64,000 nucleotides of DNA from Plantactinospora sp. BC1. Its GTDB lineage: Bacteria; Actinomycetota; Actinomycetes; Mycobacteriales; Micromonosporaceae. Shown piece by piece: positions 9,671-14,220 of this stretch. Positions within the stretch are counted from its first letter, which is position 1; each line of letters starts with the position of its first letter. A program made the translations under genes and the position numbers. Location of the stretch: NCBI RefSeq assembly GCF_003030345.1, contig NZ_CP028158.1:6448001-6512000 (forward strand), written 5' to 3'. Under the pieces are notes generated by a model, which saw nothing but the letters and a program-made list of their open reading frames with translations, was not told where the DNA came from and made no database searches.

Positions 9671-9745
9671 GCTCACCTGGGCCGCTCACCTGGGCCGCTC
9701 ACCTGGGCCGCTCACCTGGGCCGCTCACCTGGGCCGCTCACCTGG
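9671..9745. repeat. 13-bp tandem repeat, six copies
   Basis: GCTCACCTGGGCC repeated without change at 9671, 9684, 9697, 9710 and 9723; the copy at 9736 breaks off after GCTCACCTGG. A 13-bp unit cannot keep a reading frame, consistent with a non-coding location. Confidence 0.9.
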
Positions 9746-9792
9746 ACACCAGAGGCGCTACGACGCTGCCATAACGCCTCTGGCGTCCAGGT
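9740..9792 (-). terminator. Hairpin downstream of leuS, possible terminator or REP-like palindrome
   Basis: Arms 9740-9757 and 9775-9792 pair over 18 positions with one mismatch around a 17-nt loop. It lies about 115 nt beyond the leuS stop in the direction of transcription. There is no U tract, as is common for actinobacterial terminators. The length and near-perfect symmetry would also fit a dispersed palindromic repeat. Confidence 0.45.
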
Positions 9793-9881
9793 CGAGGCCG
9801 GACCCGCTGCCCGGTGACCCCGCGAGCCCGCCGCCCGGTGACGCCGGGAACCCGCCGCCCGGTGAGGGAGGCGGGCTCTCC

Positions 9882-9917
9882 GACGGGAGGTCAGGCGACG
9901 ACGGGAGGTCAGGCGAC
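9882..9917. repeat. 18-bp tandem duplication spanning the leuS stop codon
   Basis: GACGGGAGGTCAGGCGAC occurs at 9882-9899 and again at 9900-9917. The second copy contains the reverse-strand leuS stop (9909-9911) and its last codons; the first copy repeats them just downstream. Confidence 0.85.
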
Positions 9918-12749
9918 GACGCTGACCATCCGGCCGGTCACCACGATCACCTTGCGCGGCTCCCGACCGGCCAACTGGTCGGCGACCGCCGCCAGCGCGG
10001 CGGACCGGATCTCCTCCTCGGTCGCCTCCGCCGGCACCTCGACCCGGCCCCGGACCTTGCCGTTGACCTGCACCGGGTACGTCACCGACTCGGCGACCAG
10101 CAGGCTCGGGTCGGCCACCGGGAACGGCTCGTACGCCAGCGACTCGGCGTGCCCCAGCCGCTGCCACAGCTCCTCCGCGATGTGCGGTGCGAACGGCGAC
10201 AGCATCAGCAGCAGCGGCTCCGCGACCTCGCGGGGCGTGGCGTCCAGCCTGGTCAGGCCGTTGGTCAGCTCGATCAGCTTGGCGATCGCGGTGTTCATCC
10301 GGATGCCGTCCAGGTCGCCCCGGACCCCGTCGATGATCCGGTGCAGCAGACGGCGGGTCTGCTCGTCGGCCGGGGCGTCGGTGACCCGCAGCTGCCCGGT
10401 CTGCTCGTCGACGATGGTCCGCCAGACCCGTTGCAGGAACCGGTACGCCCCGATCACCGCCCGGGTCTCCCAGGGCCGGGAGACGTCCAGCGGGCCCATC
10501 GACATCTCGTAGACCCGGAACGTGTCGGCGCCGTACGCCTCGCACATCTCGTCCGGGGTCACCACGTTCCGCAGCGACTTGCCCATCTTGCCGTAGACCC
10601 GGGTGACCTGCTTGTCGCCGAAGTAGTACCGGCCGTCGTCCTCCTTCACCTCGGCGGCCTCGACATAGCTGCCCCGGTCGTCCTGGAAGGCGTACGCCTG
10701 GATCATGCCCTGGTTGTACAGCCGGCGGTACGGCTCGAAGGACGAGACGTGGCCCAGGTCGAACAGCACCTTGTGCCAGAAGCGGGCGTACAGCAGGTGC
10801 AGCACGGCGTGCTCCTGGCCGCCGACGTACAGGTCGACGCCGCCCGGGTCGCCGGGCGACTGCGGGCCCATCCAGTACGCCTCGTTGGCCGGGTCGACGA
10901 AGCGGTCGGCGTTGGTCGGGTCCAGGTAGCGCAGCTCGTACCAGCAGGAGCCGGCCCACTGCGGCATCACGTTGGTCTCCCGGGTGTACCGCTTCGGCCC
11001 GTCGCCCAGGTCCAGCTCGACCTCGACCCAGTCCTTGCGCCGGGACAGCGGGGTCTCCGGGTCGGAGTCGGCGTCGTCCGGGTCGAAGGTGCGCGGCGCG
11101 AAGTCGTCCACCTCGGGCAGTTCGACCGGCAGCATCGACTCGGGCAGCGCGTGCGGGTTGCCCTGCTCGTCGTAGACGATCGGGAACGGCTCGCCCCAGT
11201 AGCGCTGCCGGCTGAACAGCCAGTCCCGCAGCCGGTAGGTGACCGCGCCGGAGCCGTGCCCGTTCGCCTCCAGCCACTCGATGATCCTGGCCTTGGCGTC
11301 GGCGACGAACAGCCCGTTCAGGTCCAGGCCGCGGTCCGGCGCGGCGCTGTTGATCGCCGGCCCCTCCCCGGTGTACGCCTTGCCGTCGAAGTTCTCCGGC
11401 GGCTGCACGGTACGCACGATCGGCAGCTCGAAGACCTCGGCGAACTCCCAGTCCCGCTCGTCCTGCGCCGGCACCGCCATGATCGCGCCGGTGCCGTAGC
11501 CGGCCAGTACGTAGTCGGCGATGAAGATCGGGATCTGCGCGCCGTTGGCCGGGTTGCTGGCGTACGCCCCGATGAAGACCCCGGTCTTCTCCCGGTTCTC
11601 GGCCTGCCGCTCGATGTCGGTCTTGGCGCCGGCCGCCTTCCGGTAGGCGTCCACCGCGGCCCGGGGGGTCGCCTGCCCGCCGGTCCAGGCGTCCCGGGTC
11701 CCCTCGGGCCAGGCGTCGGCGGCCAGCGACTCGACCAGCGGGTGCTCCGGGGCCAGCACCATGTAGGTGGCGCCGAAGACGGTGTCCGGCCGGGTGGTGA
11801 AGACCCGGATCGGCGCGGCGGCGGTCGGGAACTCGATGTGCGCGCCGGTCGACCGGCCGATCCAGTTCCGCTGTTGCAGCTTGATCGGCTCGGGCCAGTC
11901 CAGCGCGTCCAGGTCCTCGATCAGCCGGTCGGCGTACGCGGTGATCCGCATCATCCACTGCTTCAGGCTGCGCTTGAAGACCGGGAAGTTGCCCCGGTCG
12001 GAGCGGCCGTCCGGGGTCACCTCCTCGTTGGCCAGCACGGTGCCCAGGCCCGGGCACCAGTTGACCGGCGCCTCGGAGACGTACGCCAGCCGGTGGTCGT
12101 CGACGATCCGCCGCCGCTGCGTCGCGGACAGCTCCGCCCAGGGGCGGCCGTCCGGGGTGGCCCGGGTGCCGGACTCGAACTCGGCGACCAGCTCGGCGAT
12201 CGGCCGGGCCCGGGCGGCGGCGGTGTCGTACCAGGAGTTGTAGACCTGTAGGAAGATCCACTGGGTCCAGCGGTAGTAGTCGGTGTCGATGGTCGCCACC
12301 GAACGCCGGTCGTCGTGCCCCAGCCCCAGCCGGCGCAGCTGCGAGCGGTAGTAGCCGATGTTCGCCTCGGTGGTGGTCCGGGGGTGGGTGCCGGTCTGCA
12401 CCGCGTACTGCTCGGCGGGCAGCCCGAACGCGTCGAAGCCCATCGTGTGCAGCACGTTCCGCCCGGCCATCCGCTGGTAGCGGGCGTAGCAGTCGGTGCC
12501 GATGTAGCCCAGCGGGTGCCCGACGTGCAGCCCGGCACCGGACGGGTACGGGAACATGTCCAGCACGAACAGTTTCTCCGCGTCCACCCGGGGGTGGTCG
12601 GGGTCGGCCAGCGGCCCGACCGGATTGGGCGCCCGGAAGGTACCCCGCTCGGCCCACCGGTCCTGCCAGCGGATCTCGATCTCGCCGGCCAGCGCGGCGG
12701 TGTACCGGAACGGCGGGATGTCCGCCGCCGGCTCGGCTGCCTCGGTCAT
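9909..12749 (-). CDS. leuS: Leucyl-tRNA synthetase
   Basis: Class I aminoacyl-tRNA synthetase of 946 aa that charges tRNA-Leu in the cytoplasm. The HIGH-type motif HVGHPLGY lies near residue 75 and the KMSKS-type loop [10 protein letters not shown] near residue 720. The editing (CP1) domain lies between them, including [18 protein letters not shown]. The ATG at 12749 has a clear Shine-Dalgarno, GAGGAGA, 6 nt upstream. The 5' region contains a leucine-rich leader peptide and an intrinsic terminator, which indicates transcription attenuation by leucyl-tRNA supply. The 3' end carries a short tandem duplication. Confidence 0.97.
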
Positions 12750-12846
12750 GTCGTCTCCTCGCTACATCCTCGTCGCTCCGCCCTGGTCGACCGAGCTGGC
12801 TGAGCACCGAATTCAGGTCTGTGGGCCGGGGTCCGTTCTCCGGGCA

Positions 12847-12872
12847 TAAAAAAGCCCCTCACGCAGGAGGGG
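12847..12872 (-). terminator. Attenuator terminator in the leuS leader
   Basis: On the reverse strand CCCCTC (12872-12867), a 6-nt loop and GAGGGG (12860-12855) form a perfect 6-bp stem, followed by C and six U residues (12853-12848). It lies about 100 nt upstream of leuS and 26 nt after the leader-peptide stop. The region around that stop (12910-12899) can instead pair with 12883-12874, giving the alternative fold expected of an attenuator. Confidence 0.8.
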
Positions 12873-12898
12873 TGGCCGCGCTGTCGCTGTCTGTCGCG

Positions 12899-12937
12899 TC
12901 AGCACGGCTCGCTAAGGAGCAGGTGGACCCTGGACAT
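12899..12937 (-). CDS. leuS leader peptide (12 aa, three consecutive Leu codons)
   Basis: ATG at 12937, protein MSRVHLLLSEPC, stop at 12899. Three successive leucine codons (CTG CTC CTT, the last rare in this GC-rich genome) sit in the middle of the peptide. There is no Shine-Dalgarno; a -10 hexamer TACGAT ends 6 nt before the ATG, so the mRNA should start at the AUG. The stop is followed by pairing segments and an intrinsic terminator before leuS. When charged tRNA-Leu is scarce, ribosomes would stall at the Leu run and favour antitermination. Leucine-rich attenuator peptides before leucine genes are known in actinobacteria; the mechanism here is inferred. Confidence 0.8.
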   Translation of the reverse strand: MSRVHLLLSEPC

Positions 12938-12943
12938 GCGGTC

Positions 12944-12973
12944 ATCGTACCGCGCCCCCGGCAGGGCTGTCGC
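12944..12973 (-). promoter_or_regulatory. Promoter of the leuS leader transcript
   Basis: On the reverse strand GCGACA (12973-12968), an 18-bp spacer and TACGAT (12949-12944). The -10 ends 6 nt before the leader-peptide ATG, predicting a leaderless start. Confidence 0.6.
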
Positions 12974-13158
12974 ACCCGATACCGGCGCCAGGATCCGACC
13001 CCGGGCTCTCGGGTGTGCTCGGCTCTCCCGCCGAATGCGGTTAGCCTGAGTGATGCGGGTGATCCGGTTACTCCGGACGGACGTATTCTCCCGCGAACCA
13101 TACGGCCGGCCCAACGACTCTTATTAGGCGGCGGCCGTGATCGACGAGGAGGAGGCCC

Positions 13159-14220
13159 GTGACTCAACAGACCTGGGACGAACTGGGCGGCGCGCTGCCG
13201 AGCGACCAGTTCCGTGCCGCCAGCGACGCGATCGTGGCCAATATCGAAGAGGTCATCGAGGGCAAGACCGCGACGGTCCGGCTCGCACTCGCCGTCCTGC
13301 TGGCCGAGGGCCATCTCCTGATCGAGGACGTACCGGGGGTCGGCAAGACCAAGCTGGCCAAGGCGCTCGCCCGGTCGATCGACTGCTCGGTCCGGCGCAT
13401 CCAGTTCACCCCCGACCTGCTGCCCAGCGACGTCACCGGGGTCAGCGTCTACAACCAGGAGACGCACGACTTCGAGTTCAAGCCGGGCGCGGTCTTCGCC
13501 AACCTGGTGGTCGGCGACGAGATCAACCGGGCCTCGCCGAAGACCCAGTCCGCGCTGCTGGAGAGCATGGAGGAGCGGCAGGTCACGGTCGACGGCGTCA
13601 CCTACGAACTACAGACCCCGTTCATGGTGATCGCCACCCAGAACCCGATCGAGATGGAGGGGACCTATCCGCTGCCGGAGGCGCAGCGCGACCGGTTCAC
13701 CGCCCGGATCGCCATGGGCTACCCGGACCCGGGTGCCGAGCTGGCCATGCTGGACGTGCACGGCGGTCGGGACCCGATCCACGAGCTGCGTCCGGTCTCC
13801 GACGCCGCCACCGTACGGAAGCTGATCGCCACCGTCCGCGACGTGCACGTCGCCGACGCCGTCAAGCAGTACGCTGTCGACCTGGTCACCGCCACCCGCG
13901 AGGCTCCCGACCTGCGCCTCGGCGCCTCCCCCCGGGCCACCCTGCAACTGCTGCGCACCGCGCGGGCGGTCGCCGCGCTGGAGGGGCGCGACTACGTCCT
14001 CCCCGACGACCTCCAGGCGCTGGCGGTGCCGGTGCTGGCGCACCGGGTGATCTCCACCGCGGACGCGCAGCTCGCCCGGCGCACCACCGACGCGATCATC
14101 TCCGACCTGGTGCACCGGCTGGCGTTGCCGCACGAGCGGCAGCGCTCCCCCTACGACACCCGGCCACCCTCCGGGGACGGCAGCACCGGGCGCTCGCAGT
14201 ACGAGCCGCGGAGGCGATGA
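13159..14220 (+). CDS. MoxR-family AAA+ ATPase
   Basis: AAA+ ATPase of 353 aa with Walker A GVGKTK (residues ~59-64), Walker B LVVGDEINRA, the MoxR signature ESMEERQVTVDG, and sensor 1 in FMVIATQNPIE. MoxR proteins act as chaperone-like ATPases, often helping assemble or activate partner proteins encoded next door. The GTG start follows a strong GAGGAGGAGG. The stop overlaps the start of the DUF58 gene (ATGA). With the DUF58 and TgpA-type genes it forms the moxR-DUF58-transglutaminase module common in actinobacteria and probably envelope-related. Confidence 0.92.
   Translation: MTQQTWDELGGALPSDQFRAASDAIVANIEEVIEGKTATVRLALAVLLAEGHLLIEDVPGVGKTKLAKALARSIDCSVRRIQFTPDLLPSDVTGVSVYNQETHDFEFKPGAVFANLVVGDEINRASPKTQSALLESMEERQVTVDGVTYELQTPFMVIATQNPIEMEGTYPLPEAQRDRFTARIAMGYPDPGAELAMLDVHGGRDPIHELRPVSDAATVRKLIATVRDVHVADAVKQYAVDLVTATREAPDLRLGASPRATLQLLRTARAVAALEGRDYVLPDDLQALAVPVLAHRVISTADAQLARRTTDAIISDLVHRLALPHERQRSPYDTRPPSGDGSTGRSQYEPRRR

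Follow-up and report, generated by a model that had tools for sequence, protein, structure and literature searches.

In the leu operon attenuator of Escherichia coli and Salmonella, rare leucine codons have long been known to serve as control codons. This rare-codon explanation of the enteric leader is called an oversimplification in PMC1183508, where the rare codons themselves are mentioned. For Streptomyces, Seliverstov et al. (2005; PMC1262725) give candidate leuS attenuators with antiterminator hairpins in S. avermitilis and S. coelicolor, and for leuA (the LEU element) they invoke a pseudoknot together with SD pairing; the same text relates that changing codons of the S. coelicolor ilvB leader was without effect and that codon mutations of the leuA leader were inconsistent with classical attenuation. 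In S. lividans TK24, the leader leuL2 (MRAVRLLLSEPR) stands before leuS, followed by a hairpin and a U run, and its authors report leaderless transcription from RNA-seq (PMC8079986). Leaderless cysteine-codon attenuators are known in mycobacteria (Canestrari et al. 2020, as mentioned in PMC9031893); there the speed of translation of these polycysteine sORFs controls the downstream genes, an effect described as regulation of the translation of those genes.

The leader examined here lies on the minus strand of a stretch of 64,000 nucleotides of Plantactinospora sp. BC1 (NZ_CP028158.1, positions 6,448,001 to 6,512,000), hereafter the window, upstream of leuS (Table 1). It is an orthologue of the described Streptomyces leader, for which a leaderless start has already been reported. 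The preferred reading, held at a probability of about 0.8, is that this Micromonosporaceae orthologue of leuL2 would act as a ribosome-sensing terminator, making leuS transcription depend on the supply of charged leucyl-tRNA.

Table 1. Features of the leuS leader locus, in window coordinates
Feature	Position	Strand	Basis and remarks
Possible -35, GCGACA	12968..12973	-	4/6 match, 18 nt from the -10; own call, weak
-10, TACGAT	12944..12949	-	Sequence; ends 6 nt ahead of the AUG
Leader ORF MSRVHLLLSEPC, ATG 12937-12935, TGA 12901-12899	12899..12937	-	Direct sequence reading; putatively leaderless
CTT, final leucine codon, proposed control codon	12914..12916	-	Conservation across leaders
P1 5' arm, GCCGTGCTG	12900..12908	-	Covers first two bases of the stop codon; RNAalifold and covariation
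P1 3' arm, CAGCGCGGC	12875..12883	-	Pairs with GCCGTGCTG, one G-U; RNAalifold and covariation
Terminator hairpin T, CCCCTC-CTGCGT-GAGGGG, perfect 6 bp	12855..12872	-	Terminator scan, RNAalifold, covariation
U tract, six T	12848..12853	-	Sequence; one C separates the tract from hairpin T
leuS, 946 aa, ATG at 12749	9909..12749	-	Proposed controlled gene

The preliminary description of this locus listed TACGAT, a 6-nt spacing, the AUG, the frame MSRVHLLLSEPC with its stop, a perfect hairpin and six U before leuS, and all of these are read directly in the sequence. It also placed the first pairing segment after the stop codon, which is wrong, as GCCGTGCTG (12908-12900) overlaps that codon. P1 and T are separated by two bases. 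A terminator scan of 12500-13300 returned hairpin T as its single site (mean of 0.2 in shuffles), and a promoter scan reported no promoter. The Plantactinospora genome contains one full-length leuS match and one match to the leader covariance model described below. Control of leuS by a T-box or another riboswitch would suit a gene that codes for a synthetase, but no Rfam family reached its gathering score anywhere in the window, on which ground this candidate was rejected, and it is a coding frame with a Leu run that is conserved instead; such control is exceedingly improbable.

Two further observations concern the surroundings of the leader. The sequence RTGCCC (12842-12847), directly 3' of the U tract and past the expected end of a terminated RNA, recurs in Micropruina (L077) and among many of the Micromonosporaceae compared. 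Just past the 3' end of leuS, at 9700-9820, the translated frames contain a short repeat (GPLTWAAHLGRS...), which suggests tandem repeats.

The spread of the leader was followed from a LeuS scan of genome contigs, from which the best 80 of 591 loci were taken, giving 81 with the window. A leader, defined as a frame that contains Leu-Leu, is preceded at 4-8 nt by a -10-like hexamer and lies no more than 450 nt from leuS, is present at 72 of these 81 loci (the best 80 of 591 scan matches and the window), with peptides that include MAGVFLLLTGPC, MARRFLLLSRPC and MRAVRLLLSEPR. None was found within 450 nt at nine of the 81: L034 (Pilimelia), which retains hairpin T, four Saccharopolyspora, three Pseudonocardia and Actinomycetospora. 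Alignment A1 holds 48 of the 72 leaders, 24 near-identical, long-terminator or long-insert ones being excluded, and was used to build a covariance model of 93 positions, R1. Searches with R1 used filters that miss some weak matches; they found the element in 117 of 121 Micromonosporaceae genomes, in 161 of 394 genomes of the class (leuS downstream was checked in part of these) and in 24 of 396 genomes of the phylum. At least three of the 24 precede other genes, and therefore at most 21 are leuS leaders. The weak phylum matches L134, L135 (ilvB-like gene by eye) and L136 (leuA-like) are in distant lineages and may be related or convergent leaders.

LeuS lies directly downstream in all 20 loci listed for the phylum search, the window included. 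A second, more diverse alignment, A3, comprises 91 elements; it was aligned to R1 and is hence biased to the R1 structure, nearly all of its members having been fetched as matches to R1, which itself contains CTT. LeuS is found within 700 nt downstream of 90 of the 91, and the contig ends at the remaining one. At four loci (L099, L101, L102 and L104) the leader occurs in a family of another class, with LeuS only 40-42% identical. At three others (L127, L128 and L130) a divergent second leuS, its product 36-44% identical to LeuS of the window, carries the same type of leader with P1 and T, and the usual leuS is also present. In some relatives short gaps leave little space for a second promoter: in L077 just 29 nt separate T from the LeuS match, and in L128-L131 the downstream ORF follows the element by 19-38 nt. 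Across these comparisons, conservation of the leader far exceeds what chance would be expected to give. The preliminary description had looked to the leuS upstream regions of relatives for the Leu run and the hairpin; both are kept in the leaders of the 72 of 81 loci, and the absence of conservation that it had named as telling against its reading was not seen.

The position of the -10 hexamer was assessed at 72 leuS loci anchored on the CTT codon and the P1 sequence, the -10 being ignored to avoid circularity. At these loci TANNNT ends 6 nt (39/72) or 7 nt (30/72) before an in-frame ATG or GTG, and each other spacing from 0 to 19 nt accounts for 0 to 2 of the 72. A TANNNT is found at 5-8 nt in 70/72, with an SD-like core upstream in two of these. 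Such a conserved spacing would be expected if transcription began at the AUG or immediately beside it, and a leaderless geometry is supported on sequence grounds. The leaderless mRNA had been singled out in the preliminary description as the less usual aspect of the locus; a leaderless mRNA is made likely by the conserved geometry and the S. lividans report, and its novelty is lost to the same report, which had already described it for a leuS leader.

Statements on codon usage rest on the 72 leaders selected by the Leu-Leu frame and the -10, and those on -10 spacing on the loci anchored by CTT and P1. The final leucine codon is CTT in 71 of the 72 leaders and CTC in one, and the leucine codon ahead of it is CTT in 42, CTC in 22 and CTG in 8. 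Among the 5698 leucine codons of the leuS genes at the 81 loci, there are 20 CTT (0.35%), 261 CTC and 5303 CTG. Of the 48 A1 rows, 47 have 5 nt between CTT and P1. When the best stem downstream of CTT was sought independently in the 72 leuS leaders, it started at 5 nt in 64, 4 nt in six, 2 nt in one and 12 nt in one. In the 90 of 91 A3 rows that are readable, the final leucine codon before P1 is CTT in 79, CTC in nine and TTG in two, and its distance to P1 is 5 nt in 84, 2 nt in three, a 1-nt overlap in two and 6 nt in one; CTT also stands 5 nt before P1 in the three 2-nt rows and the two TTG rows. The rule of this leader is CUU, less often CUC, usually 5 nt before P1. L147, an element at a contig end, has CTG at the expected place of CTT, and it counts against the proposed explanation, as do the nine of 81 loci without a leader. 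Of the 48 aligned leaders, at least 90% have an A directly after CTT (CTTA; codon 12911-12913 in the window), although the codon that this A opens varies among Ser, Thr and Ile. Four of the ten long tRNAs checked in the Plantactinospora genome are tRNA-Leu (UAA, CAG, GAG and UAG), and tRNA-Leu(GAG) is expected to decode both CUC and CUU.

RNAalifold, applied to the MAFFT alignment of the 48 A1 leaders, predicts P1 and T and nothing else. In this alignment 92.3% of the cells of P1 (10 pairs) and T (7 pairs) can pair, against 87.9% in shuffles and 38-54% in slid controls. Changes on both sides are found in 7 of the 17 pairs (4.5 in shuffles, with 9 of 500 shuffles reaching 7) and in 44 cells (16.5 in shuffles, reached by 0/500). 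The model-fitted A3 (91 rows) has double-sided changes in 12 of 17 pairs and in 131 cells, with shuffles at 7.0 and 30.2 and 0/500 reaching either value. P1 and T covary. At the base of P1, GCCG and CGGC are nearly invariant, also in cases where they are untranslated (L029, L100 and L167, with a TAG just before).

The leuA and ilvB leaders were compared in 28 upstream regions each from 31 Micromonosporaceae genomes, with L269 and L270 (second leuA-like matches), L299 (partial) and L300 (weak) left out. Leaders of leuA were recognized by pattern in 15 of 28 regions, all with CTT as the final codon and an 11-bp hairpin exactly 5 nt on; among the 13 loci missed by the pattern, a search for CTN, 5 nt and a stem recovered CTT, 5 nt and a hairpin in 12, and not in L264. 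Leaders of ilvB have GTA CTT in 27 of 28 cases, the other having just 81 nt of upstream sequence, and the stem starts 4 nt after CTT in 3/27, 5 nt in 17/27, 6 nt in 6/27 and 8 nt in 1/27. In shuffled tails the best stem started at 3-6 nt in 54/300 (leuA), 87/540 (ilvB) and 245/1440 (leuS). Stems scoring at least 24 were observed in 15/15 leuA, 25/27 ilvB and 47/72 leuS leaders, against 22/300, 10/540 and 71/1440 shuffles, respectively. In Plantactinospora itself, the leuA leader (L239, G000:C1:2332500-2333500) reads MWQALLLRC... with CTG CTC CTT, the CTT lying 5 nt before a strong hairpin, and the ilvB leader (L240, 5804500-5805600) reads MSATRSFRVLI with GTA CTT ATC, the CTT lying 6 nt before a strong hairpin.

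The leuA and ilvB leaders of the Micromonosporaceae share nearly the same rule of CUU, 5 nt and hairpin. No earlier description of it was found in a narrow search of mainly open-access literature; CUU as the final leucine codon, its spacing to P1 and the same rule in leuA and ilvB are new here. It is tentatively proposed, with rather more doubt than confidence, that a shared module of rare CUU, 5 nt and a strong hairpin controls leuS, leuA and ilvB, in which a ribosome awaiting tRNA-Leu(GAG) on the base of the hairpin would set downstream termination or translation without an antiterminator. If so, one scarce isoacceptor would be the common sensor for branched-chain amino acid genes and leuS. 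The S. coelicolor ilvB and leuA codon-mutation results, as they are related in PMC1262725, count against the preferred reading of the leuS leader as a ribosome-sensing terminator.

P1 and T are mutually compatible folds, and the preliminary description had envisaged segments that pair in two ways. In a classical attenuator of the trp type, a ribosome at the Leu codons would let the P1 3' arm pair with the 5' arm and loop of T as an antiterminator, P1 and T forming otherwise. Such a pairing can be drawn in the window, between GCGCGG of the P1 3' arm and CCTGCGT of T, at -5.9 kcal/mol against -10.9 for T itself; a version of 5-6 bp can be drawn for many of the 48 relatives, and antiterminator hairpins are reported for two Streptomyces leuS leaders in the text of PMC1262725. 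The helix fails its controls, however: random loops were equally stable in a median of 41% of draws, native loops gave weaker pairing than shuffles of the same loops (mean -5.7 vs -6.7 kcal/mol), and the pairing has no covariation. This helix was rejected as an antiterminator on these three controls, and an attenuator of the trp type is considered unlikely.

A second candidate, 7 bp between the Leu run and the T 3' arm, pairs in 90.5% of cells against 89.9% in shuffles (22/500 reach it), a marginal excess, with a covariation score of 0.145 against 0.135 (26/500 reach it); slid versions pair less, at 56-77%. Its sense would be wrong for induction, since the Leu run is unavailable for pairing while a ribosome occupies it. 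The excess over slid versions, like the near-invariant P1 base, untranslated cases included, would suit a constitutive leader with a partial terminator, in which CUU and the hairpins are kept for a reason at the RNA level and the peptide is no leucine sensor. CUC would pair better than CUU with the T 3' arm, however, CUU recurs in leuA and ilvB leaders amid different sequences, and the frame is kept although the codons ahead of the Leu run vary, all of which make a constitutive leader very improbable.

Neither candidate helix clearly beat its controls in the 48 and 91 relatives. The effect of a stalled ribosome was modelled in the 48 sequences by masking the RNA to the front edge (first base of the P site + 14, the usual footprint) and folding the rest, masked pairs being counted as 0. 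T had a mean pair probability of 0.91 whichever of the three Leu codons occupied the A site; the value was 0.89 after one further codon, 0.87 with the ribosome at the stop and 0.88 on ribosome-free RNA, and in every case 4-6 of the 48 sequences were below 0.5. For P1 the mean went from 0.99 with the ribosome at Leu codon 1 to 0.85 at Leu codon 2, 0.30 at CUU and 0 beyond; at CUU the upper half of P1 was still folded in the model (about 0.9), and a ribosome held at either of the two earlier Leu codons would disturb P1 little. Within this model, then, the place of the ribosome decides the state of the P1 base, the largest step being from the second Leu codon to CUU, and T does not respond at equilibrium. 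The two alternative pairings are therefore not supported, T staying folded on average at each modelled position and neither candidate helix standing clearly above its controls. The remainder of the preliminary description, a leucine attenuator for leuS, stands in its leader, leaderless geometry and intrinsic terminator, on 81 loci, several hundred genomes and the S. lividans RNA-seq report. Two features of classical attenuators are found, control codons for the cognate amino acid in the leader frame and an intrinsic terminator between leader and gene; as no antiterminator is supported, the leader is said to work like an attenuator and is not classed as a classical one.

Pausing could stand in for an antiterminator if P1 were a pause hairpin, as in the his and trp leaders, that holds the polymerase until the ribosome comes, so that pausing sets read-through. 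A TG stands 10 nt (49) or 11 nt (34) after P1 in 83 of 108 sequences (91 A3 rows and 17 others, in which the P1 end was set by pattern), near the hairpin-to-pause distance of the his and trp pauses, but TG is also fixed within the T loop, which confounds the tally, and without an antiterminator a pause alone does not account for read-through. As the whole of the mechanism, pausing is thought somewhat unlikely.

The comparisons establish a leader frame linked to leuS, with a rare CUU at a conserved distance from P1, and the two hairpins P1 and T; the ribosome-sensing terminator proposed here builds on these. Transcription would start at or next to the AUG, as the conserved geometry suggests, and a ribosome would initiate on the leaderless frame. 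With charged tRNA-Leu plentiful, it would pass CUG-CUC-CUU, halt at the UGA that overlaps P1 and leave; P1 and T would then fold, and the polymerase would presumably stop at the U tract. With charged tRNA-Leu(GAG) short, the ribosome would wait with CUU in the A site, its front edge, given the usual footprint, on about the first 4 nt of P1, so that the P1 base could not close and more polymerases would probably read through into leuS. P1 might serve as a pause hairpin or aid the folding of T. The lack of an antiterminator, and a P1 whose upper half stays folded in the model when the ribosome is at CUU, count against this stall switch. On the sequence evidence, this is a genuine element and very likely a functional one.

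With these comparisons the leuS leader, so far described in a few Streptomyces, is found in most sampled Micromonosporaceae genomes and elsewhere in the phylum, and a covariance model becomes available for an element without an Rfam match. The near-fixed spacing of CUU and hairpin in three kinds of leader is a simple, testable rule for reading the stalled ribosome, and it singles out tRNA-Leu(GAG) as the likely sensor; the missing support for an antiterminator questions the textbook scheme for these leaders.

Set beside known systems, the leader has rare leucine control codons in common with the enteric leu attenuator, but here the codon is CUU, the frame is putatively leaderless, the gene encodes a synthetase and no antiterminator is supported. 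Its small, putatively leaderless frame resembles the leaderless mycobacterial polycysteine sORFs, whose codons are for cysteine and whose control, as described in PMC9031893, is at the level of translation. The actinobacterial leuA and ilvB leaders belong to different genes and have, in the Micromonosporaceae, CUU followed by a strong hairpin about 5 nt on, as in leuS. The 2005 Streptomyces leuS candidates share the gene, a leader peptide and a terminator, whereas their antiterminators, compared by their description in the text of PMC1262725, are unsupported in the 48 and 91 relatives. The Streptomyces type of P1 differs in having an extra hairpin in its loop (L070), and leuL2 (PMC8079986) is alike in its gene, in a 12-aa peptide ending in LLLSEP and R or C (MSRVHLLLSEPC in the window and MRAVRLLLSEPR in S. 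lividans), and in the hairpin and U run that follow.
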